A stretch of 64,000 nucleotides of DNA from Eutreptiella sp. 'Long Island Sound 2002' (Eukaryota > Euglenozoa > Euglenophyceae > Eutreptiales > Eutreptiaceae): assembly GCA_964036045.1 (NCBI GenBank), contig OZ038379.1:118247104-118311103 (forward strand), written 5' to 3'. A program made the position numbers and the translations under genes. Every line of letters starts with the position of its first letter. The stretch's first letter is position 1. The notes under the pieces were generated by a model. The model was not told where the DNA came from. It saw nothing but the letters and a program-made list of their open reading frames with translations, and did not search any database. Positions 11,202-56,754 of the stretch are shown here, piece by piece.

Positions 11202-14200
11202 CTAGTGCACCTCGGGACATATTCCGTGCGCGCCGGCTATCTCCCAGAACATCTTGGTGACCTCGGCGCGCACGGAGGTTGCGCGGTGGTGGACGAGTGT
11301 ACCCACGAGGGCCACCGCTGCCTGCTGGCACCGCGTGGGCACCCGTGTGAGCCCCAGGGTCCGATCATCCTGCAGGCTGTCCCGCGAGGCGTCGAAGGCG
11401 TACCGCGCCCTGTCCTTCGCGACCTGGAGAGTGATGTGGTCCAGGTGGCGTGCAGTGTCGGAGTCTTTGGCGATGAAAGGGGCGACACACTGCGTCACCC
11501 CCCCGAGGATCGCCAGGATGACGTCCTGCACCACTTTCGGTGGCGCGAGGGTGTTAAGGCACCAGTGGTGCACCGCCGCCAGGCGTAGCCGGTGCTTGCG
11601 CTGCAGGGAGAACTCCCCGTCCGGCTGCAGCTGGAGTCCCAGGTAGGGGACGGAGTCCGCCGCTGGTACCCAGTGCCACGGGTTTTCCAGGTGGGGGCAG
11701 AGGCGCAGCTGCAGGCCCGGGACCCCCTCTGTGGTGGCCATGGCGCACTTGCGGGGGTTGAGCTCCATGCCCATCATCCCCAGGTACGCGGCCACCGCCT
11801 CCACGCCCTCGACGAAGTGCTGCAGCGTGTGGGCCACCACCAGCAGGTCGTCGATATAGGCCTGGATGAGGCCGTGCTCGGCCCCTCCCGGCGGGCGCAG
11901 GCGGTGCCCCTGTGCCCTGAGCAGGGGCTCCAGGAGGAGCGCGTACAGCAGGGGGCTCTCGGGGTTGCCCTGCCGGACGCCGCGTAGCATGTAGACGGGC
12001 TGCGTTAGCCCGTGTGCTGTGACGATGCGCAGCCTGGCGCACGTGTGGAGGAAGAGCAGGAGGTCGATGACGTCCGGCGGCACAGAGAGGTGGCGCAGGA
12101 TGAGGTGGAGGGCGCCGTGTGGGGCGGTGTTGAAGGCCTTGCGGGCGTCAAAGGAGAAGGAGTAGTTGGGCCCTCCCCGCTGGAGCTGCCGCTGCGCCAT
12201 GAACAGCGGGGGGCCTGTGTTGGGGCCAGGGAGGGCCCCCTGCTGCCAGTCGCTGACCACTCCGTGCCGTGTGAGCACTTCCTTGATGCGCTGGGTGAGG
12301 GGGCCCGTGAGCAGCTTCATGTCCAGCTGGCCCAGGGCTATGGGCCTGTAGTCGTCCACTCTGGCAGAGCCCGGTACCTTGGGGCTGAGCCAGATGTGCG
12401 CGTCCCTCCAGTGCATCGGCGGCGGGGCGCCGCGGAGGATGGCCCGGTAGGAATGGACCAGGAGCCACTGTACGGGTGCTGGGAGGGCCTTGATGAAACG
12501 GGCCTCCACGTGGTTAGGACCTGGGGCCTTGCCATCGGCCTTGTCCAGGGCGGATTTCAGGTCCTGCATGGAGTACTGCTGGACCTGTGTCCAGGCCCCC
12601 TCAGGGACCCGGGGGACGTGGCGGCCGAGGACTGCCTGGAAGCCCGGGAGGTCCACCGGGCGTTTGTCATACAGTTCTCGCCAGAAGGCGCGAACTGCGA
12701 ACATCACGTCGTGGGCCTCCGTGAGGAGCGTTTGGGTGTTGGGAACCAGCACGTTCCAGAGGCCTGACGGGCCTGGGGCCTCTACCTCTATGGCTCCCCG
12801 CACGGCTTTCCATCGCTGGGCGATGTCGGGGGCGTGGCGGCGCCAGAAGTCCTTGATGGCGCGCTTGCAGTCTGCCGCCAGGAGGGCGCGGAGCTGGCGA
12901 ATGTCCTCCTCGAGGGCGGCTGCTTGCCTCTCAAGCTCCTCCTGTAGCTGGCCCTGCGTGGTCGGGCGGAACCCGGGCGACACACCCTGCAGCTCCTCCG
13001 TGAGCCAGAGCGCCGCCTCGGACCGGATGCCATGCCCGGCCGCGTCCGCCTGGTACGCTGCCGGCGCGCGCGCTGCCAGGGTGTCATAGCGGAGGACCGC
13101 TGCCTGGAGCTGCTTTCCGCTCTCCGGGAGGTCCCCCTCCGCCGGGTCCGTCCCCGCCGGAGACGGCTGCCAGCGTCCCACCACGCGCGCCAGGGCGTCA
13201 TGCGTCGCGTGGAGGTGTTCGAACACCTTGTCCACCGCGGCCGCGGGCATGGACCCGTAGTCGTGCTGCTCTGCGGGACCCAGCCAGGGCGCCAGGGAGG
13301 GTTCATTCTGCGCGGCGGTGACCGCCGCCCACAGGCAGTGTTGGACGGGCGCGGCCTCCGCGTCGTACGGGAGGAGGCGGCCCTCCGTGTGGCTGTAGGG
13401 GGTGGGCATCGCCGCGCGCCCCGCTGCGCTGAGGAGACCCGGCAGGGCCAGGCGGACCGGGAGGTGGTCCCAGCCGACCACCTGGGGTTGTGCCATGCCG
13501 CGAGCCCAGACGCTTTCCCGCAGGGACCACGGCAGGAGGGGCTCGTTGACCAGGAAGGTGTCCACCCTGTGCCGGGACGGGTGGAGCGTGGGGGTCATGT
13601 CCTCCTCGCCGCCTGCCGCGGCCCTTCGGAAACCGCAGGCCTCCCAGCCCGCTCGGAAATGCTCCGTGGCCGGGTTGGCGGGGACATCCATGTAGATGTT
13701 GGTGTCGCCGGCGATGACCACCGGGTGCCTCCCGCCGAGGCTGCGTGCCGTGGCATACATTTGTATGTCGGCCCAGAACGCCGCCCGTCCCGCCCACGGG
13801 GAGCAGCCTGCTTGCGGCCCGTGGACGTTGATGAGGGTGAAGCCTCCCCCGTCCGTGCGGATCTCCAGGGCCGCGGCCTTCCCGGGGACAATTTCCGTGA
13901 AGCTGAGCACCACGTGCTCCGCCACGTACTTGCTGCTGACCGCGGTGAGGAGCCCCCCCCCTCTCAAGGTGGAGGTGGCTCCCGTCTCTGCCAGCCGGCT
14001 GCTGAAGAAGGCGGTGTACCCCTTGTCCCGGAGCGCCGCGGCCACGTGCATCTCCTGCGCCCTGGTGGCGATCCCTGTTTCCTGGAGCATGATGGCAAAG
14101 CCCCCCTCCTGGGGCAGCATGCCGGTGATGAGGTGCTCCTTGTCGGTGCAGGCCGCCGGCCCCCGGCGCCGCCGGAGTGTGTCCCGGAGGGACCGGTCTG

Positions 14201-14258
14201 ACGGCACGAGGCCGTTGCGCAGCCTCCAGGAGAGGAGCCACAGGGCGTCGCCCGTCAT
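11202..14258 (-). CDS. LINE ORF2, first block: AP endonuclease and reverse transcriptase (1018 aa)
   Basis: Residues about 50-275 are an APE-type endonuclease: QET (59-61), LINVHGP (142-148), AGDTN (183-187), VDTFLVN (232-238) and the terminal WDH (263-265). Residues about 570-930 are a non-LTR reverse transcriptase: FDARKAF with catalytic D704, GVRQGNPESPLL, and YIDD at 801-804. The endonuclease nicks the target and the RT copies the RNA from the nick. ATG 14258 is preceded closely in frame by TGA, so the start is plausible. The upstream C2H2 ORF lies in a different frame. The stop at 11204-11202 interrupts an otherwise continuous frame. Confidence 0.9.
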   Translation of the reverse strand: MTGDALWLLSWRLRNGLVPSDRSLRDTLRRRRGPAACTDKEHLITGMLPQEGGFAIMLQETGIATRAQEMHVAAALRDKGYTAFFSSRLAETGATSTLRGGGLLTAVSSKYVAEHVVLSFTEIVPGKAAALEIRTDGGGFTLINVHGPQAGCSPWAGRAAFWADIQMYATARSLGGRHPVVIAGDTNIYMDVPANPATEHFRAGWEACGFRRAAAGGEEDMTPTLHPSRHRVDTFLVNEPLLPWSLRESVWARGMAQPQVVGWDHLPVRLALPGLLSAAGRAAMPTPYSHTEGRLLPYDAEAAPVQHCLWAAVTAAQNEPSLAPWLGPAEQHDYGSMPAAAVDKVFEHLHATHDALARVVGRWQPSPAGTDPAEGDLPESGKQLQAAVLRYDTLAARAPAAYQADAAGHGIRSEAALWLTEELQGVSPGFRPTTQGQLQEELERQAAALEEDIRQLRALLAADCKRAIKDFWRRHAPDIAQRWKAVRGAIEVEAPGPSGLWNVLVPNTQTLLTEAHDVMFAVRAFWRELYDKRPVDLPGFQAVLGRHVPRVPEGAWTQVQQYSMQDLKSALDKADGKAPGPNHVEARFIKALPAPVQWLLVHSYRAILRGAPPPMHWRDAHIWLSPKVPGSARVDDYRPIALGQLDMKLLTGPLTQRIKEVLTRHGVVSDWQQGALPGPNTGPPLFMAQRQLQRGGPNYSFSFDARKAFNTAPHGALHLILRHLSVPPDVIDLLLFLHTCARLRIVTAHGLTQPVYMLRGVRQGNPESPLLYALLLEPLLRAQGHRLRPPGGAEHGLIQAYIDDLLVVAHTLQHFVEGVEAVAAYLGMMGMELNPRKCAMATTEGVPGLQLRLCPHLENPWHWVPAADSVPYLGLQLQPDGEFSLQRKHRLRLAAVHHWCLNTLAPPKVVQDVILAILGGVTQCVAPFIAKDSDTARHLDHITLQVAKDRARYAFDASRDSLQDDRTLGLTRVPTRCQQAAVALVGTLVHHRATSVRAEVTKMFWEIAGAHGICPEVH

Positions 14259-38087: not shown

Positions 38088-39433
38088 TTGACTATGGGGA
38101 GGTCAATAAAAAGACCCAGAACCACTCAGGGAGTATCCCCAACATGGAGAACACCCTGGAGAGAATCGCTAAGTGTCGATTCAAGACCAAGATGGAAAAG
38201 CGCAGGGGCTTCTGGCAAGTAGACTTAACCCGAGCAGCCCAGGAACTGCTCGCCTTTGTAACCCCTAAGGGCCGTGTCTTCCGCTGAAAGGTCATGCCCT
38301 TTGGTGTCGCGAATGCCCCTGCTCTCCTTCAGGAGCTGATGAACAAAATCCTATATATGCTGAGACGCAGACCCCTTGTGCAGGAACTGGTTTCCCGCGG
38401 GGCTGAGATGGAGGTCCACATCGACGACGTGAGCCTGGCTACTAATACCCAAGAGGATCATATCCTCCTCCTGCAAGAGTTTTTCACCTTCTGTCAGGAA
38501 AACCATCTCCGCATCAAACTCGAGAAGTGTGAGTTTATGCGAGAGGAGATGGAGTACCTAGGGTTTGACGTGGGGTATGGCTGGAGGAAACCAGCCGCGT
38601 CTAAGATGCAGCCCCCACAGGACATGCAGATACGTGACAACCCTAAGAAGGGTCTACACGATGTGCGGAGTTTTATTGGTCCCTGCAATTTTTACCGACG
38701 CCACATTCACAATTTTACGTATTCATCGGCCCCCCCGACTGACGTTATAAAGAAGACCAACCCTCGGCGGTGGACCGACAAGGAGGAGGCCTCTTTCCAG
38801 GAGTTGAAGAGGAAAATATCTTCCACCAACTGCCTGGGGGTGCCCCGCCCTGAGGGCGAGATAATAGTCGTCACGGATGCGTGTGATGTAGGGGGGGCTG
38901 GTACCCTATACCAGTGGCAGCAGCTTAACCCCAATGAGTTGTCGCACTGCCAGTTTCACACTTCAGGTCTGAACCGCGATGGAACCCTGAAGCATGACTA
39001 TCCCACCAATGAATGGCGTCTGTTGCGTCTCGGGCAGTGGAACTGGAAGTGGAATCAAGCACGATCCAACTACAGTACCTATGACCAGGAACTCTTGGTT
39101 GGGATGCTCGTGCTCTCTTCCCAATCCCGTCTTCTAGTTACTAACCCTGTTGTATCGCTCTGTGACCAAGAGCCTGTGAAGACATTTCAGAAGGGCCCGC
39201 CTCCTGAAAAAGCGAAACTAAAACGATGGTGGACATACCTGAGTCAGTTCAGGTGGACCGTCCATCATATACCAGGTATAAAGAACGAGATGGCTGACTA
39301 CATCTCGCGTAATAACATCGACGCCCTCCTAGGCGAGAGCTCTGAAGCGTTGGCCAAAGAGGCGTCCAACGTATGGATGTCCAGCCCGACCTATCCATGC
39401 GTACGGCAGGTGTACTGGAGGGCTGGAGCCTGA
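38073..39433 (+). pseudogene. Ty3/gypsy Pol, third piece: reverse transcriptase and RNase H
   Basis: RT resumes at MRLVVDYGEVNKK. FWQVDLTRAAQE is the first catalytic region, KVMPFGVANAPA is motif 4 and HIDDVSLAT the catalytic DD (usual Y replaced by H). A TGA at 38285-38287 replaces the invariant Trp before KVMPFG. RNase H follows: D in VVTDACDVGGAG, E in YDQELLVG, D in SLCDQEPV. The frame ends at 39433, where an indel near 39365 shifts the reading into the integrase frame. RT and RNase H make double-stranded cDNA. Confidence 0.9.
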
Positions 39434-40983
39434 GAGACTACCAGGCTGAGTACCAGTGTGTACTCAGTACCCTCAGTGATGGCCTAGAGGCACGCCTAAT
39501 AGATGGAGACCGCTGGTATGAAGATAACCAGTACCTATACTATGAGGACCGCATGGTTGTGCCTGAGGCACAACTGGACGGCTGTCTGCAGTGGGCACAC
39601 CACAGCTCCAGAGACACAGGGTGCAACCGGGCTGCTGCTTTCTTCAGTGAGCGTTTCTACTGCCGACTAACCCAGTCTGAACTACGTGCCCGTATGCAGT
39701 CCATAGTGGACTCCTGTGACTTTCACGCCAGCAAACAGAGCGACTCACGTGACAGAGGACTGGTCTCCAGTCTCCCCATACCCTACTGTGCTAACACCCT
39801 GTTGTACGCGGATTTCATCCACGGTTTGCCTAAGTTTGGTGGCTATGATAGTTGTTTGGTGGTCACCTGTGATCTAACCCGCTTCACACGTGGTTTCCCC
39901 TGCAACAAGAAGATCACAGGAGAGCAGACTGTGAAGATCCTGGTGGAGGAGTGGTTTGAGCCCCATGGGGCGCCTAAGGAGATCCACTCCGATGAAGATG
40001 GACGCATCCAGAGTGATACCGGTTGGTACAAGCGAGTGCTGGACGCCCTGAACATCCAGGTAACCACAGATGTACCTTACACGCTCACGTCTAACCCTCT
40101 TTGTGAGAGACATAATCGCGTGGTGGAGCACAATCTGAGGATTCTGATGAAACAGGAGCGCACCAAACATTGGGTACGCCTGTTGCCCTGGGCCGTTCTG
40201 ACCATGAACTCTCAAGAGAGTTCGTCAACCAGCTATACCCCCCCCGAACTGTTCCATGGGGGGCGTCCTGCGTGGTTTTTCCAAACCCCTTTCCCCGAGG
40301 ACTATAACAGCCCAAATGGGGACTGGCTGGAGCACCGGCAGGACCTGGCTAACAGGGCCAGAGCTAACCTGAAACGCGTTCGAGAACGCGAACGAACCCG
40401 GCGTAACCGCACGGGACGTCCTGCCAGTTTCAAGGTAGGAGACCTGGTGCCTGTACACCACTCACGATTGCCCACATGGCCCCGCAACTGTTTGCAGGAC
40501 CCCTACTTTGGGCCCTATCGTATTATCAGAATAGATGGATCCAGGATCCATGTGAGGTGCAGCCCTCGTCTAGGTGGGGAGCTGCTGTGCGCTCCTAAGC
40601 AACTCAGACACTACCACTCCCCTGATGAACTATCGTGCGATGAGTGGCGCTTGCCTGACTGTGAGGTCAAGCGTATCGACCTAGAGAACGCTGCCACCCC
40701 TGAGGAGGCAGACGAACGCGAGGAGATGACTGCCGAGGAAATGGCAGTCGATGGCCACTACGTGGTTGAAGGTATTGCACGCCACGAGTATAAACAGGGC
40801 TGGAATTTACTGACCCTGTGGGATGGCTATGGGCTACCAGAGGCTACCTGGGAGCCTATGTCAGCCTTCATACAGCCAGATGGGAGTATCAACCCCATCT
40901 TTTGTTCCTACCTCGTTGAGAACAACGAGGGGCAGTTGCTAACCCGTGCTGAGACCCTGTCCCAGCGTAAGAAGAGGAACTAA
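39373..40983 (+). pseudogene. Ty3/gypsy Pol: integrase with C-terminal chromodomain
   Basis: An open frame of 536 residues. The zinc-binding N-domain is imperfect: HH is present but the second pair reads C-D-F-H rather than C-x-x-C. The catalytic core has D in LLYADFIHG, D in EIHSDEDG and E in LCERHNRVVEH, spaced as a DDE integrase. The C-terminal 70 residues form a chromodomain (YVVEGIARHEY then LWDGYGLPEATWEPMS), which places the element among chromoviruses that target chromatin marks. The frame is intact to TAA at 40981-40983, but the N-terminal part depends on the shifted upstream frame. Confidence 0.9.
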
Positions 40984-44450: not shown

Positions 44451-44798
44451 ACACGAGGGACAAAAGAAAAGCTCTAGGTTAGACTACACCCCATCTTCTT
44501 AGGGAACAGTTTCCTCTGTGTTTTTGTGTACGGCACTGGTCGAAAATGTCAGTGAATAGTGATAGACTAGGCGCCCAATACATTGGTGCGCATGCCCAAC
44601 ATCGATATGTGCCAACCGGTTCATTGTCAAGTCTCCAGTAGCAGCCACAGCTGCCTCGTGCACATTCCAGGCAAGTTTCACAAGATTAAGGCTAGGGCAA
44701 AAAAAGAGGTGGTACAAACCAAGAGAAGACGGAGCGAGGAAGGAGACGATGACGGGGCACACAAGAAATCAAAACCCCAGAGCGAGCCGTCTACCCAC

Positions 44799-45549
44799 TG
44801 CAATAGGGTTGGCTTTCCCCCTTTGGGTTACCCCCCACGGCATCGGTCCCAAGACCGATCCAAGCCCCCCACACACACAACATACCTTTGGGGTGGGATG
44901 CAGTAGACCCTAGGGGTGCTGAATTACTCCTTTTCTGGCCAGGTGCGCGCGCGACACAAATCGCGATCGGGCCTGAGCCTACTGAGTTTTAATTTTCCAA
45001 TTCTGATTTCTGTGGGTCTGACTTTACGGGATCGTGGATTTCTGTGGTTTTAGACCCATCCAGTTTGATTGGTGCTCTTGGTTTGGTTTGAGGGGCTGAT
45101 TTTGCCATTCACACATGTTAGAGGTCCGACACACACGAATCTTTGTCGCCACAGCGTTGCTCGTGGTGTAGAGTACTCAATTGTGTCGCTTTGGTATTAG
45201 TAAAAAACTGAGTGTGTATTTGTTGTGCTCTTGTTTGTATGTTTACTTATCTATTTCATAGATAAGTATAAGATGACATTATGTAAGGTTCATTGTTCGA
45301 ATGTTATGTGATACTCTGTCTGAGAGAACTTCAACAAGGATCAAGACCAAGTCTGGAAAGTGTCTTTGCTCGCCTTTGTCATTGTGCATTTACTTTGATT
45401 GAGGTTTGTGGTGTCCATCCATGTACCATGCTAAAGAATAGACATCCTTGGTCATTGGCAAGTTGGAACTTTTGGATTTTGAGTTCGGCATTTTCGAAAT
45501 ATCATTGGGAGAAAGTTATTTGACTTGACCAACATGGGAGATCCTTACA
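44799..45549 (+). repeat. 5' LTR
   Basis: 751 bp, begins TGCAATAGGG and ends GATCCTTACA. Aligns without gaps to 49007-49757 at about 96% identity. Confidence 0.9.
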
Positions 45550-49006: not shown

Positions 49007-49757
49007 TGCAATAGGGTTGGCTTTCCCCCTTTGGGTTACCCCCCACGGCATTGGTCCCAAGACCGATCCAAGCCCCCCACACACACAACATACCCTTGGG
49101 GTGGGATGCAGTAGATCCTAGGGGTGCTGAATTACTCCTTTTCTGGCCTGGTGCGCGCGCGACACAAATCGCAATCGGGCGTGAGCCTACTGAGTTTTAA
49201 TTTTCCAATTCTGATTTCTGTGGGTCTGAATTTACAGGATCATGGATTTCTGTGGTTTTAGACCCATACAATTTGCTTGCTGCTCTTGGTTTGGTGTGCG
49301 GGGCTGATTTTGCCATTCACACATGTTAGAGGTCCGACACACACGAATCTTTGTCGCCACAGCGTTGCTCGTGGTGCAGAGTACTCAATTGTGTCGCTTT
49401 GGTATTAGTAAAAAACTGAGTGTGTATTTGTTGTGCTCTTGTTTGTATGTTTACTTATGTATTTCATAGATAAGTATAAGATGACATTATGTAAGGTTCA
49501 TTGTTCCAATGTTATGTGATACTCTATGTGAGAGAACTTCAACAAGGATCAAGACCAAGTGTGGAAAGTGTCTTTGCTCGCCTTTGTCATTGTGCATTTA
49601 CTTTGATTGAGGTTTGTGGTGTCCATCCATGTACCATGCTAAAGAATAGACATCCTTGGTCATTGGCAAGTTGGAACTTTTGGATTTTGAGTTCAAAATG
49701 TTCGAAATATCGTTGGGAGAAGGTTTTTTGACTTGACCAACATGGGAGATCCTTACA
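49007..49757 (+). repeat. 3' LTR
   Basis: Pairs with 44799-45549; clustered substitutions near 49697 (CAAAATG against CGGCATT). Confidence 0.9.
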
Positions 49758-49781
49758 CCAACCCCAATCCATTAGCACACT

Positions 49782-49919
49782 CTTAGCCCACGCAAACTAC
49801 ACCCTGTTTAGCGCGCCGAAGCCGCAGAAAAGGACCGGTTCGCAACAGGGCAAAAAATCTATTTTTTTGGATGTTTGATGAACGTGATTTTAGACATAGT
49901 GAAATAAATTGCTTTTTTA
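49782..49919 (+). repeat. Left terminal inverted repeat region
   Basis: Sixteen exact outer bases, then patchy similarity to the right end, closing with the exact 19-mer GAAATAAATTGCTTTTTTA at 49901-49919. Confidence 0.7.
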
Positions 49920-50874
49920 GTGTTATGCAACTCTGTGTTCCTCAATGTGACGTTTTTTACATTTCTCTGGCGTTCTGAGTGCGCGAGGCCTCGCGCACTC
50001 AAGATATTCAAAGTGGAGTTTATCACAAAACCTAAAAACCCGTAAGGACTGGCGTTTGCAGAAATGCGCAGCTCCCACATGGTATTAAAGGTAGGATAGT
50101 GTTGCCCAAGGAGCATTGGAAGTGTATGACCGTCGGACTTCCCATGTTCGGGGAAACACATGTACTGTAAAGTGAAAGTAAAATACAAATTTAGGCATCC
50201 GGAGTGCGCGAGGCCTCGCGCACTCAGGTCACGTTATGCATTGAATTTGCAGAATGTAAATAACGCCTACAATCGCAGGTACAGTACCAGACGGACAAAC
50301 ACATTTGATTTTTCCGGTGTATGTGTGTGTAGACGCCATGTTGGTCAGATATAACGAGGTATAGAACATTGTCCCAAGGAGACAATCAGTGCGCGAGGCC
50401 TCGGGCACTTAAACGACGGAAGGAAATGAAAAAGCAGGCAGGTTGGGGTACGCCGGTATTTACATTCCCTTTCACGGCTACCACCTGTGACAGTGGATTA
50501 TACATCGGTAACCTTCGTCATATTTTTCAGGGGATCAGGATAATGATTTGCTTTTTTCCAACAGCCACTCAATGGCAGATGTGTCCAGTTCTAATAGCGG
50601 CCGTGGCCCTCGCTGCCCGATAGATATGGTTTTGTTTTCCAACTAGGTTTAAAGAGGGAAACAGAATGGGAAATTGTGGTTGCGAAAGCGGTTTTCGGTT
50701 ACTGGGAACGGAGCGCACGCAGACACCAAATACAATTTGCGGCGGCAGCAAGCGCACCAGAAATGACAACAGGAAAAGGCCAGATGTTTTGAAACACAAT
50801 TTTGTTAAAGATCGCCGTGCGAAACGATAACCAAAATATGTGCGCAAATCTAATTCCAGAGAGAAAGACGCAAA

Positions 50875-52870
50875 ATGCCACTTCGAGCCAGAAAATCCGT
50901 AACGCATCAGATGATAGCAGAAGTAAGCAAAGGAGCAGCAGCACTACGAGAGGCACACACGGCAGAAGCAGCATCCCAAACAGCAGACGACCTGTGGAAA
51001 GAACTCGAACGAAACGACCTGGCGGCGCAACTGGTGTTAACATTTGCACAGCGACTCAGGTTCAACAAAAGAACGCGCCACAGTTTACCAGCAGCTAAAA
51101 GGCAGGAGGACAAGCGCTGGGTGCGCATTTTGCGACAGGAGGGCTGGAACCTGTACCTGTTGATGCGTCAACGGGCAGTACCATACAGGGAAAAACCGGG
51201 AAACAAAAAAGGGTACCTAACGCAAACAGAAAGACGAACGAAAGTACGACTTGGGAAAGCAGACGCTGCCGCAGATACAGTGGACGAACAGGCAGCAGCA
51301 GCACTTAAAGCAACGTGGTCACTGGTGCTTTCGTCGTGTTGCGCTGTGGATAGACAACTGGTACCGGGCACAATACACGACACACCCAGACAAAAGTGAC
51401 CGGTCGCAAAACTGTACTGCAATGGCAGTACTTCAACTCAGGCAGAGGCCCACGTATTGGGCAGGACATCCAGCCATTGAGGACCTGGCAGCATGGATAA
51501 CCACAGTCGCAAGGGCTCTGCAACAGCGTGAACGAAGAATCCCCCAGACTTTGCGTGACATGGGGTATGCAGATGGGTGTGCACCAGACACCGGAAACGT
51601 GAGAGCACCGTTGGACGTGAGGAGGGATGCAAGGACTGTGCAGGCACCGGTGTGGCGCCCGTTTGCCCTGTCAAAAGAAAAGGTAACTAGTGGTGTTGGT
51701 CTGGTAAACTTGTTACACTTTGCAAAGGACACAGCACAACAGACAAACAGAGTTCTACCGCTGTTGGTTGACGAAAACATACACTACAGGATACTAAAGT
51801 TGTTGTACGGTGCCAAGAACCAACGATGGAACATGCGTGCGTACCTGCGTTACGTGCCTGTAGTTTACGGTGTCTTGCATGCCTACAAGTTCGTTGTTAC
51901 TCATACTTTTCGGGTGTTCTGGCCTATTCTAACCTACCTACGGAAAGGTCTGCTACGACCTGGTTCTACCATACTATCATACCCGAAACTGATAGTTCTG
52001 GAAAAAACTATTGCTGCGCTGATGCTTGCCACACCCCGAATACTACGCCCGTATCGGCTCAAGGCACAAGCTACAACCGCGATCAGTTGTCGTGACACTG
52101 CGCATGCCAACAGGGCAGCAGTGGCAAATGCAGTTCTGCATTTGTTGTCGGAATGGTGCCCGTTGCTGTTGTACTTGGGCCACGTGGTACGGGAATGCAA
52201 CTGGTCAGGGGAAAACAACGGTACAGGGTCACGAGCTCAGGAGGTGTTGCAGTTGAGTTTGTGTCTGTTGAGGAGGCTGCGTCGAGGACCGTGTGACACC
52301 GTACTGAAGTACCAACGCACAATCATGTGCACATTGTTGTACAACAGCAAGTGGCACCAGGACCGGCCCGGTCAGGCACACTCCCAGGAGTTTGGAGAAG
52401 GGATGTTGAGCAAGTTGGTGCGGGACAAGGCGAGAAACACGGGTTCTGTTACTGTTGAGGAGGTGGAAAACCATTACTTGTTACTAAAGGTTGGTCCTGG
52501 TGGCAAACACCTCGGGGTACAAAACGTTCCCAAGAACCTGGTACACAGGATGCGAGAACGACTGACAAGATTTTTGGCGACCGACCGGATTTGCATGGCC
52601 TATGTGGAATGGGAGTCGGACAGAGTCAGCACCGTTGCAACTTCGTGGCCGCGGAGGTTACCGAGATTTCCACCCTCACCTACACAACCCCTTGGTTACG
52701 ACCACTACCGGCTACTTGGTCACAGCGTACTAGATGCCCTCATCGACGAGAAAACAAATCCCACCAACCAACTAAAACGGAAACTGGATGCTGTTGTGGG
52801 GCGGAGAACAGATATGGATGCCGACAGACAGGAAGCAGCAACACGCAACGTGCGGCAACGCTTGCGGTAA
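50875..52870 (+). pseudogene. Transposon gene 1, unknown protein of about 660 residues, one frameshift
   Basis: ATG 50875 opens a frame with basic, helix-rich text; near 51290, at a GCAGCAGCAGCA run, the natural reading moves to the frame that continues to TAA 52868-52870. The shifted part (539 residues) has VDENIHYRILKLLY, then VPVVYGVLHAYKFVVTHTF, and later KYQRTIMCTLLYNSKWH and QAHSQEFGEG. This order faintly recalls the GDQ...FHA...EHN layout of DUF6589-type proteins of mobile elements, which I state only as a possibility. No intron and no palindrome lies in it. The frameshift may be mutation, slippage or a short intron. Confidence 0.55.
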
Positions 52871-53119
52871 CTGACGCCTGCAGTGCGCGAGGCCTCGCGC
52901 ACTAAACGTTACGAAAAACAGGTATGTAATGCGATGTGAGTGCGCGAGGCCTCGAGCACTGAGTAGTTCGCTAAGTGCCGTAGATTAAGTCACAACAAAG
53001 ACAGTTGTGGAACAGATTTGCGAAAACGACCTGCAAAATACCGTCTCGACTGATTTCAGAGTTCAAATGACCGTGTTTCATGTCATGCCATTTGCCCTTT
53101 TTAGGTTTTTTTTGGCATC
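52871..53119. other. Spacer between the two transposon genes
   Basis: Holds two palindromes. The second follows ACAGGTATGTAATGCG, which looks like a splice donor 17 bp before it, so a 5' UTR intron of gene 2 is possible. The start codon of gene 2 follows a T-rich stretch. Confidence 0.5.
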
Positions 53120-56060
53120 ATGAGTGAACCAGGGTCGCCAGAACGTCCAGCACCAGACGCAGAGGCCATGGAGTCGTCACCAAGGACCGACCAAGGGGAC
53201 ACGCCGAAGAAAGGACGCAAAAAGAAGGGTGAGAAGAAGCCAATACCGGAGATGAAGCTCACAGTCGACGTGCGTCAGTGGCTGCGGCAGGAGAATGGTA
53301 AAGCCGTGAAGGTAAAGATTGCTGATTTGAGAATTGACGAGACCAAGGAGCGCAGACAGATCCGATCCATCAACTATGACCACGTTGCCAGGAAAGTGAC
53401 GAGATACCACGCACTGCCACCAGCTGGACCGTTGCGCGTAACGGAGTGGGAGGATAGTGGTATGACTCGCTTCGCATTCGATCGACGACGTTTCTTCTCT
53501 TTGCTTCCGTACGTGATTTGCTTTGCAAATGGCTCACTTTACGTTCTGAATGGTCAACATGGCACAGAAACATGCGGGAACATTCAGGAACTGCGTCCCG
53601 CAGAAAGCAAAGAATTGGAGGATTGGCAGGACTTTTGCTACGTTGACATTCTGAAGTACGAAACGCCTTGGAGTATCCGGGCCAAGGTTGCAGGATTGCA
53701 ACGAGCTGGCAGCCGGTCTGTGACGTGGATTCCCCTGTCCGAGGCGCTGGACAACATGTTGTTGTACATTGAGGACCGGAAGCGGGAAAAAGAGCCACAA
53801 GATTTCGAGCGGTTCAAGATTGCTGTTGTCCAGGCTGCTGTCAACTCTGCGTTTCTTGCACCCAAGGCTTTGGAGGAAGCAGGACACACAGTATGTATTG
53901 TTGTAGCGCACGGTTACAGTGCGCGAGGCCTCGCGCACTCCATGACACTGTTTTCCCCCGCAAGACTCGACATTCAAGAACTAGAGGGACATCTTCAGCC
54001 TGGCGTATTACTGCGGTCGTAAGGCGGTTACTGGCAAGAAGAACCTCGAGACTAAGAGCACGAAAGAGGAATTTAGAAGGAATGCCTTCAAGAAGCTGGA
54101 TGGGTTGCATCTACCGAGCTTATTGCAGAAAGTCTGTGCGCACATGAACCTCAAGGACTCGACCTTACGCACCACCCAGAACTACATTGACGCACAGATT
54201 ACAGATCAATGGATTATTTTCCATCTTGACCATCCGGACAATAAGCAGTATGTCAACCAGACCGCAGGTATGCGTCAGTGTCGCAGCTTCAGTGCGCGAG
54301 GGCTCGCGCACTCAACCACCGTTTTTGCATCCGTACAGCTGCCGATGCGAAGATCCGAGCGAAAGTGGCAGCACTGGGCACGCCGCAACTGAAAATTGGG
54401 CTGGGAAATTGGGGTTACTGGCCGGACGCAACAAGTACGAAGTATCGGTCGCCGTGGCCAAAATGGAAGACGTTGACCAATGCACCTCTGTGGCGGACTG
54501 GGGACAAGGGCGCACCTCCATTACCACAGACGTTGGCCGTGCGGAAACAACTGCAAAGGAACACTGAGGCACCATCATCGGCACCGTCACAGACACAGCT
54601 GAGTACTGGCGACGTGATCAATGTCTCCAAGCAGGACGAGCAAGGGAGCAAATTCTCTTTGACGGCGTGCCGTATTGAGGATATTGAAGAGACACCGCCA
54701 GCCCGTTTCCGGGATCTGCAGTACCCGTTGTGGGTCATCAACGCTGACCTTTTCGTTGAATATGACACTGCAGGATTTGTTCCGAAGTGGCTGTTCGATG
54801 TGATGATGCTGGGGAAAGACGTCATTTTCTATGGCGAGGCTGATGTTGTGCACCGTATTGGCCGCGACATACAGAGGCTCTGGCGTATGGAGAAGGACAA
54901 GGATCCAGCCACAGTGCCATTCTACCATGTTCGGTTGCCGGTATACTCTTGGTTATCGGGTCCCGTGACCAGCAGTACATATCAGTTCGACGAGCACTGT
55001 ATGTGGATCGGAACAACGAGTCGCTGAGATGAGCAGGTATATGTGCTTCTTTCGCGTGTTACGATGCCGTTGTGTGCGCGAGGCCTCGCGCACTGCTGCC
55101 TCCGTTATTCGTCTTTATACATCACATTTACAGTTGCTGAACTATGTGTCGTATTCCGCTGGACATTTCCAAGAGATGCAGAACAAGAACCTTGGTGGTT
55201 TCATGCCTCCGATTCACGTGCTGTGGTACCTGGACAAATATCTTTTGGGCAGTGGGTATTCTGATGCAGTGGTTGTTGTGGACGACACGCCTGCCGTGGC
55301 CGCAAAGATTGCGATGTCCGACCTCTGTACTAAAGTGGCGTTTCTGGCTGTGTCAACGATCAAGCAAAAGGACCTTGGGAATGCCGTTGGAGGTGCTCTA
55401 CAGCATGCAATCATCATGCGTACATGTTGGAGGCTGATCGGACAGAGCAGGGAGCAACAGCTGCAACTTGGGACACTCAAGAAGGGTCGCATTCCACTGT
55501 GGGTTTTGGACAGCAACCGAGGGCATGAAGGGCACCAGCAGGTGCATGCTGCAGAGGCCGTCCAGGAAGATGTCCCGACTGAGGCCCCCGCTGACGACAC
55601 TGAGCCTGTTGCGCCTGCACCTACCTTGCCAATGCAAGCCAAGGTGAAAAAGGCTACCAAAGTTATACCAACTCAGGGTACTGCAGCCGGAAAGGGAACC
55701 CCCTCGAGTAGCAAGAAGCAGGCAAAAGGAAAAGAGAAGGAATCGGACAAGCCCGCGGAATCAGACGACGACGATACCGACGAGGAGGAGGAAGAAGAGG
55801 ATACGGAGCAAGTACTGGAGACCCAGCAGAAGCGCAAGCGGGCACCCGCCGCTCTCTTCGATGCAAGCCCCGAATCTGGTAAGGAACAGCCGAAGAAGAA
55901 AGCGAAGACTGCCGCCACCGCTAGTGCGGAGTTCAAGCCGCCTTCGCATTCTGGTGCCCAGCCGTCTCGTGGTTCCGTTGCCTCTCCAAGTGGGACAAGT
56001 GCATTGGCAAGAAGCCTGGGTTCCAGGTTGGCTAAGGTTGCTGGACCGAAGAAGAAATAA
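53120..56060 (+). CDS. Transposon gene 2, four exons, NGQH motif and acidic/basic tail
   Basis: Exons 53120-53890, 53985-54267, 54339-55036 and 55134-56060; the open frame carries across all three introns in phase. The N-terminus is Lys-rich. Around residue 145 FANGSLYVLNGQHGTET resembles the G-Q-H site of ParB/DGQHR-type domains, a weak likeness. Exon 4 has hydrophobic strands (DAVVVVDDTPAVAAK) and then a tail with an Asp/Glu run followed by KKRKR-like nuclear signals and Ser/Lys text. A TGA at 55025-55027, four codons before the third donor, interrupts the frame: a lesion, or the real end of a shorter protein. A DNA-binding partner of gene 1 is inference. Confidence 0.65.
53891..53984 (+). 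other. Intron 1 of gene 2, with palindrome
   Basis: GTATGTATTG donor, AAGAACTAG acceptor, 94 bp, phase 0. The palindrome begins 27 bases after the donor. Confidence 0.75.
54268..54338 (+). other. Intron 2 of gene 2, with palindrome
   Basis: GTATGCGTCA donor, CATCCGTACAG acceptor, 71 bp, phase 1. The palindrome (one arm base changed at the centre) begins 23 bases after the donor. Confidence 0.8.
55037..55133 (+). other. Intron 3 of gene 2, with palindrome
   Basis: GTATATGTGC donor, CACATTTACAG acceptor, 97 bp, phase 0. The palindrome begins 36 bases after the donor. Confidence 0.8.
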
Positions 56061-56285
56061 GTCACCATTAACCCAAGTGATTCACCTCTTTTTGCAGTCA
56101 TGTGTGCGCGAGGCCTCTCGCCTTCGACGCGAATGCAATTATATGCCCTTAAGGGCTTGTACATTTTTGCCGAGCTTTTATTTCAGTGTTTGTATGTTGT
56201 GCACTTCCCGTCCTGTTTTTGTTGCCATCTGTACACAATTGTTTCCATGACCTTGAGTGCGCGAGGCCTCGCGCACTCAGGGACA

Positions 56286-56622
56286 TAAAAAAGCAATTTA
56301 TTTCGAAGGACAAACATAGGTGCAACTGGAGACCCGCAGAATGTCATTTTTGAAAATGAGCTCCCGAACAGGCACGCACCAGTTGGGTTTTGAAATACAA
56401 AAACGACAAGATTGGTAAAACACACCCTTCAAATCAGACAAAATAATAGTTTATTTTAATAAACAAAAAGTGGAAAAAAGCAGCAAATTGGGTAAAATTG
56501 TATTTTTTCGGTGGTATCTGGGTCATGTGTGCTGCAAATGTCCAAAAAAAAAATAGTTTTTCGGGCGGTCATTTTTTAGGTCCTTCTCTTCCAAAAGGGG
56601 GGTGCAGTTTGCGTGGGCTAAA
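56286..56622 (-). repeat. Right terminal inverted repeat region
   Basis: Starts with the inner 19-mer (56286-56304) and ends with AGTTTGCGTGGGCTAA plus A. It is about 200 bp longer than the left end because of an AT-rich stretch at 56320-56510. Confidence 0.7.
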
Positions 56623-56754
56623 ACACTGGCGCAAACTGGCTCCTTGCTATATTGGACCTTTGGGGGAGAATTATGCTGCACAACTGCCAAAAGGCCATGC
56701 GATGCAAACCACGGACTAGCGGTTGCTCCCAGAACGCAATCACCGACTGTACTA

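Follow-up and report, generated by a model that had tools for sequence, protein, structure and literature searches.

A 64,000-nucleotide stretch of the 2.28-Gb assembly of Eutreptiella sp. 'Long Island Sound 2002' (contig C2, 118247104-118311103; "the window") contains a 6841-bp segment in which inverted ends, two genes and ten copies of one palindrome occur together. This raises the question of what kind of element the segment is, and what the palindromes contribute to it. An earlier note, made from the letters of the window, had proposed an undescribed element resembling a DNA transposon. Comparison with further copies verified that the segment belongs to a real, recently mobile DNA transposon family, and a second, diverged family was found as well. 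As judged from the sequence comparisons, the palindromes are constrained in sequence and, near the ends, also in place, and their array acts like a working component of the element.

The borders of the element and of its target-site duplication are:

49782..56622 (+), whole element (family 1), 6841 bp, with sharp edges common to other copies
49777..49781 (no strand), left target-site duplication, ACACT
56623..56627 (no strand), right target-site duplication, ACACT
49782..49804 (+), left terminal inverted repeat
56600..56622 (-), right terminal inverted repeat

The motif TAGCCCACGCAAACT[A/G]CACCC is present at both ends (49784-49804 on the plus strand, 56600-56620 on the minus strand), and none of 100 shuffled sequences gave such ends. 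With the flanking bases included, the inverted repeat of the window copy is 23 bp long with two mismatches, and the ends of the element read CTTAG..CTAAG. The inverted ends and the flanking ACACT described in the earlier note were thus both recovered.

A genome-wide search with the end sequence, allowing up to two mismatches, yielded 1,252 and 1,232 sites, in total 2,484, compared to 1 and 0 with the reversed control. Two samples of copies were analyzed. The first consisted of 20 stretches; apart from that of the window, there were 19 around palindromes among the matches listed, and these 19 contained seven whole copies of 6.6-6.9 kb, four elements of 1.2 kb and eight stretches with a single end. 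Including the window copy, 11 of the 12 complete copies were flanked by an exact 5-bp duplication, and the remaining one agreed at four of five bases. The second sample comprised 20 end pairs from 100 end places among the matches listed, a few other pairs in the list being left aside, and 19 of the 20 had an exact 5-bp duplication. Pooling both samples, the duplication was exact in 30 of 32 family-1-type copies with both ends read. Sharp edges and duplications therefore recurred in further copies, and the mobile nature of the element proposed earlier was borne out. Two copies, L006 and L007, were 99.9% identical where aligned, although they lie 8 Mb apart and have different duplications, which argues for recent movement; L007 has a deletion in gene 1. 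The remaining pairs of whole family 1 copies were 86-95% identical.

A few observations concern the insertion sites themselves. The fifth base of the duplication was A or T in 26 of the 30 exact family 1 duplications, a mild insertion preference. The joined flanks at L007, L028-L029, L052-L053 and L058-L059 read, by eye, as possible coding sequence, and genes or other mobile elements may thus be frequent targets. Two pieces about 11.8 kb apart, L013 and L014 (C1, around 10978124-10992611), are possibly the two outer parts of a single rearranged copy; GAGGT is found at both outer ends, and each piece contains element bases 167-698.

The ten palindromes of the window copy are:

49978..49999 (no strand), palindrome 1, perfect; 22-mer from element base 197, core from 199
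50203..50224 (no strand), palindrome 2, perfect
50388..50409 (no strand), palindrome 3, one mismatch
52882..52903 (no strand), palindrome 4, perfect, between the genes
52939..52960 (no strand), palindrome 5, one mismatch, between the genes
53918..53939 (no strand), palindrome 6, perfect, in intron B of gene 2
54291..54312 (no strand), palindrome 7, one mismatch, in intron C
55073..55094 (no strand), palindrome 8, core perfect, in intron D
56103..56124 (no strand), palindrome 9, damaged in the window copy
56256..56277 (no strand), palindrome 10, perfect, about 345 bp from the right end

They lie at 49980-56275, and no further one was found elsewhere in the window at up to three mismatches, with 0.08 expected by chance. 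The 18-bp core TGCGCGAGGCCTCGCGCA is exact in six of the ten, three differ at one base and one at two bases; this last variant, palindrome 9 at 56103, lacks 6 bp relative to the other aligned copies. The earlier description of ten identical palindromes found nowhere else in the window was hence right in number and in their absence elsewhere, and slightly too strong with regard to identity, because only six cores are exact. Genome-wide, 10,135 perfect cores were found, and none with the reversed control. All 50 distinct perfect 22-mers among the matches listed (first 32 Mb of C1) were, by eye, in element copies or pieces of them, which supports the view that the palindrome is specific to the element as far as seen. 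The 18-mer was also found in a single viral contig, for which BLAST gave no match to the element of the window.

A second family was examined by searching with P0060, which belongs to the second group of gene 1 relatives. The search was scored for the best 67 of 8,591 candidates, i.e., for the young end of the family; these were 96-100% identical to P0060, and 42 of the 67 were free of stop codons. One copy (E2, joined from L066 and L068) is 6,393 bp long, has the ends CTTAGGCGGCTCAAGTTGCATGG and is flanked by a TCACA duplication; it contains gene 1, and its gene 2 encodes 832 amino acids in five exons without a stop. The ends of ten family 2 copies were sampled: eight had an exact 5-bp duplication, one agreed at four of five bases, and in one the right end was outside the stretch. 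The two families are strongly diverged, with an identity of about 45% for gene 1 and, for gene 2, of 34% (751 positions) or 32% (880 positions), and 14 of 23 end bases alike in a count by eye. In gene 2, exon 2 (362 nt) and exon 4 (698 nt) are equally long in both families, and therefore the introns are at the same places.

In spite of this divergence the family 2 copy also has ten cores, six of them exact, three with one change and one with two changes. Three palindromes precede gene 1, two lie between the genes, three are intronic and two are near the right end. This is the layout of family 1 except for the choice of introns, which is B, C and D in family 1 and A, B and D in family 2. No palindrome is coding in either family (0 of 10 and 0 of 10), although coding sequence makes up 67% and 70% of the elements. 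The first core begins at 199 in L006 and at 198 in family 2, and the next gap is 225 versus 228 bp; the pair between the genes is spaced by 56 versus 55 bp; and the last core is 341 (L006) or 347 bp (window copy) from the right end, versus 349 bp in family 2. In all ten sampled family 2 copies the three left palindromes were at 198, 426 and 484. The DNA between the left end and palindrome 1 had an identity of 0.573 between the families, versus 0.586 ± 0.036 for shuffled sequences, and 126 of 200 shuffles were as good; for three other gaps the numbers were 125, 18 and 30 of 200. The bases just outside the core are AG..CT in family 1 and mostly T..A in family 2. Such a change, roughly symmetric by eye, is as expected for a site that is read as a dyad. 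Among eight family 1 copies, two of them nearly identical, the diversity per site was 0.011-0.071 in the palindromes and 0.048-0.162 in the 30-bp flanks (averages about 0.04 versus 0.11).

Gene-less relatives have the palindromes as well. Four 1.2-kb elements on C1 (L016, L020, L022 and L023) were 94-97% alike and had family 1 ends, three palindromes and 5-bp duplications. BLAST yielded no strong match to the long element and no gene sequence of the long elements; in a permissive BLAST the ends and the three palindromes with short flanks were alike. The left palindrome starts at 199-200, versus 197 in the window copy, and the right ones are 344-345 and 500-501 from the end, versus 346 and 499. 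Global alignment of the stretches between ends and palindromes gave 0.630 versus 0.594 ± 0.044 for shuffled sequences on the left side, and 0.626 versus 0.608 ± 0.029 on the right side. Derivation of the 1.2-kb elements by plain internal deletion of the long element was considered and rejected, as the likeness is restricted to the ends, the palindromes with their short flanks and, at about 66%, some 185 bp on the right side.

Seven further core clusters from C1 were inspected. Two were whole 1.7-kb elements (L089:867-2575 and L090:1140-2848), and the other five had no pair of ends in the stretch. The two elements are 1,709 bp long, 94% alike, and have family 2 ends, four palindromes and, in both copies, exact 5-bp duplications; BLAST found no long-element gene sequence in this family. 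That the short families carry the palindromes in the absence of gene sequence argues for a role in the DNA itself.

The two genes of unknown family on the same strand that the earlier note had described were both found, and they have the following structure:

50875..52870 (+), gene 1, probable transposase, one exon; frame broken in the window copy, open in another copy (665 amino acids)
53120..53459 (+), gene 2, exon 1
53460..53528 (+), gene 2, intron A; no palindrome in family 1 (the family 2 copy has one); acceptor changed in the window copy
53529..53890 (+), gene 2, exon 2, with the NGQH block
53891-53978, gene 2, intron B, with palindrome 6
53979..54267 (+), gene 2, exon 3; one in-frame stop in the window copy
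54268-54338, gene 2, intron C, with palindrome 7
54339..55036 (+), gene 2, exon 4; one in-frame stop in the window copy
55037-55133, gene 2, intron D, with palindrome 8
55134..56060 (+), gene 2, exon 5, with an acidic and basic tail at its end

Gene 1 is a single exon of 1998 nt in L006, the sole one of eight whole family 1 copies in which both genes are free of stops and frame changes. Gene 2 is divided into five exons by four short introns of the spliceosomal type. It encodes 876 amino acids without a stop in L006, whereas in the window copy there are two in-frame stops and an altered splice acceptor. The exon model was built from other family 1 copies and family 2, and it supersedes a three-intron model with a misplaced acceptor. 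Both genes are multicopy, with 131 protein clusters related to gene 1 at E ≤ 10 and 97 clusters for the gene 2 exon sequence, and hence they are not conserved single-copy host genes. The gene 1 clusters, 120 of which were listed, form two groups, one of about 70-94% identity (the window's own aside) and one of 36-52%. Within the second group, P0090 is a family 2 frame in which part of gene 1 is fused to the C-terminal portion of gene 2, as expected from an internal deletion. A gene 2 relative, P0131, is located on a 5,581-bp JGI contig.

The ratio of non-synonymous to synonymous substitution rates (dN/dS) was determined for both genes, in every comparison versus L006 and with several broken copies as partners. 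It was 0.12-0.34 for gene 1 (six comparisons; frame-shifted controls on three copies 0.96-1.67) and 0.26-0.53 for gene 2 (six comparisons, including 69 nt of intron A; controls on three copies 0.85-1.11), and the contrast with the shifted frames is nevertheless clear. Both genes are hence under selection at the level of the protein. Gene 1 is the probable transposase, acting at the ends. Among its conserved acidic residues are D161 (46 of 50 rows) and D300 (66 of 71 rows) and several glutamates, namely E447, E457 and E509, and their conservation suggests that D161, D300 and one of these glutamates could be the catalytic residues of a DDE/D (RNase H-fold) enzyme. Gene 2 accompanies the palindromes in all nine gene-bearing copies read end to end (eight of family 1, one of family 2), has a strongly conserved GQH block and ends in a charged, nuclear-looking tail. 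The block DGSLYVLNGQHGTETC / GDYWCVSGQHSVEAV presumably recalls the G-x-H-R block of ParB/DndB-like domains; it was without a match in the hidden Markov model (HMM) and PDB searches.

The faint resemblance of gene 1 to DUF6589 proteins mentioned in the earlier note gained no support: none of 19 gene 1 relatives matched that model at E ≤ 10, for which HMMER is possibly too weak. At the same threshold the Pfam matches of these 19 were JAMP in three and HTH_29 in one, with a best E of 0.086, and no transposase model. A profile search of viral contigs revealed no relative of gene 1. The papers searched contained neither the palindrome string nor the two end strings, literature searches on palindromes and KDZ elements gave nothing similar as judged from the listings, and 'ParB-like' combined with 'eukaryotic transposon' and 'transposase' had no match, likewise DUF6589.

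With regard to the surroundings, Rfam and tRNA scans over the window found nothing. By eye, two closely similar host repeat copies of about 750 bp lie at 44798-45548 and 49008-49758, the second of which stops shortly before the left end of the element; frames at 38294-40983 (+) resemble a Ty3-type reverse transcriptase, integrase and chromodomain; and a 1018-aa frame at 11202-14258 (-), in a region of about 70% G+C, resembles the endonuclease and reverse transcriptase of long interspersed nuclear elements (LINEs).

Taken together, it is probable that the element is a cut-and-paste (class II) transposon with gene 1 as its transposase, and that a dimeric protein, most likely that of gene 2, reads the palindromes. 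The gene 1 product would cut at the element ends and insert the element with a 5-bp stagger. A symmetric (dimeric) protein would bind the palindromes, and this reader is probably distinct from the protein part that reads the ends, because the ends diverged between the families and the palindrome did not. The gene 2 product is the best candidate for it, because gene 2 is present in all nine gene-bearing copies and has the conserved GQH block and the charged tail. The end-proximal palindromes, which may help to assemble the cutting complex, are likely needed in cis for movement, because the gene-less elements keep them; the internal ones could mark, fold or regulate the whole element. By analogy it is tempting to speculate that the lineage is a eukaryotic transposon superfamily with a centromere-like array of its own, although we regard this as unlikely: a gene 2 dimer would load at ten parS-like palindromes, fold the element and license the gene 1 transposase. 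The loaded protein would tell the element from host DNA and bring both ends together, and the gene-less relatives would need the end-proximal sites only.

Several observations weigh against the reading with a transposase and a palindrome-binding partner, or against strict constraint on the array. The spacing is not rigid between the families, with palindrome 3 at 610 versus 484 and the second palindrome from the right at 500 versus 457 bp from the end, i.e., about 43 bp apart. In the 1.7-kb family the palindromes are at 208 from the left end and at 377, 483 and 670 from the right end, so that the layout is kept, not to the base. In the 1.2-kb family the terminal 185 bp on the right, including the end itself, align to the long element, and this side is thus not wholly scrambled. 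Palindrome 9 is more diverse (0.071) than its own right flank (0.056), copy L010 has no palindrome 1, and one of the 20 copies of the second sample has a 7-bp duplication. Neither protein scored above the curated cut-off in Pfam or NCBIfam, which gives no support for a transposase or DNA-binding identity; the strongest Pfam scores, YL1 (0.0014) and DUF3245 (0.002), were below the cut-offs and located on the acidic tail of gene 2. Neither protein matched below E 0.09 in PHROGs, and PDB sequence searches with both gave chance-level matches only. These results agree with the unknown family membership claimed earlier. The helix-turn-helix match was weak (E 0.12) and confined to one of the 19 gene 1 relatives, and the assignment of catalytic residues is a guess from conservation. 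The structure predictions had a mean predicted local distance difference test (pLDDT) score of 47 for gene 1 (74-row alignment) and of 33 for gene 2 (AlphaFold2, 53 rows, with a row carrying intron A in frame).

Other explanations of the palindromes have to be weighed against a partner encoded by the element. The palindrome could be the site of a recruited host protein, e.g., a transcription factor or an origin or insulator protein, and gene 2 would then serve otherwise. A fixed partner of this kind would hold the core constant while the element ends diverged, as is observed. However, host loci would then be expected among the matches, and the 50 distinct perfect 22-mers listed for the first 32 Mb of C1 were all in element DNA, so that a host partner seems doubtful; of the seven further clusters of the 18-bp core, two were placed in a whole element. 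Alternatively, the palindromes could act in the RNA, as hairpins in untranslated regions and introns with an effect on splicing, stability or silencing. All of them are outside the coding exons, three of ten are intronic in each family, and in an intron model the palindrome forms a fold-back structure. Yet the intron fold was no better than that of shuffled sequences (z -1.16; 32 of 200 as good), intron A of family 1 and intron C of the family 2 copy have no palindrome, and no single intron A or C thus needs one. In addition, the gene-less 1.2-kb and 1.7-kb families retain the palindromes, and palindrome 1 is about 200 bp from the end in all. An RNA role is therefore quite improbable. That the palindromes are passive passengers, left by a short mobile or self-copying repeat in the ancestor or by gene-conversion tracts, can hardly be believed. 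The different sets of introns do indicate some turnover, but matching end offsets in diverged families, the absence of coding copies and an average conservation above that of the flanks need constraint, and conversion between sites would not fix distances.

As far as Pfam, NCBIfam, PHROGs and PDB tell, the lineage is undescribed, and it could not be placed in a described superfamily. This agrees with the earlier view that no known superfamily fits, because each group that was compared by features (duplication length, ends, motifs, Pfam) failed in at least one of them. A diverged member of a described superfamily (the 5-bp hAT group, Transib or the wider CACTA-like clade) that was missed by the HMM searches is conceivable, though on balance we would not expect it. 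The hAT elements have repeated subterminal motifs near their ends, and some members of the CACTA/EnSpm-Mirage-Chapaev-Transib clade have an accessory gene beside the transposase. According to one publication (PMC12730594), hAT5 elements make 5-bp duplications and the CACTA-like clade makes duplications of 2-5 bp, and both lengths would accommodate the element. It shares the cut-and-paste anatomy and the 5-bp duplications with hAT5, but differs in its CTTAG.. ends, its two genes and its 18-22-bp palindromes over the full length, including introns. A hAT model was absent from the Pfam matches of the 19 gene 1 relatives at E ≤ 10, and a very distant member is conceivable. The CACTA-like clade has 5'-CA..TG-3' ends in most members, in contrast to CTTAG..CTAAG. 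The motifs C(2)C and H(3-4)H were not found in order between the second D and the last E of the putative catalytic residues: P0003 (gene 1) has neither, and P0060 lacks C(2)C, its single H(3-4)H being located at residue 484, past the CNW block.

An extra gene is also present in some KDZ members, from which the element is set apart by description, as the same source gives 8-bp duplications for Zisupton (PMC12730594), and by the missing Pfam match. With ParB-parS, which serves as an analogy only, the element has several copies of one palindrome and a linked gene in common; it differs in being a eukaryotic transposon whose gene 2 matched nothing in the HMM and PDB sequence searches. The sites read by most known transposases are located at the ends or just inside them. 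A palindrome that is spread over the whole element, is found outside of coding sequence and is kept amid scrambled DNA points to an additional layer of recognition in transposition, and the ten-site gene-bearing elements and the three- or four-site gene-less elements offer a natural contrast for testing it. Neither protein has a convincing family match, and the lineage could therefore define a new transposase group; it would be new in category if known transposons turned out to have nothing like the structure of gene 1 or the reading of the palindromes by gene 2.

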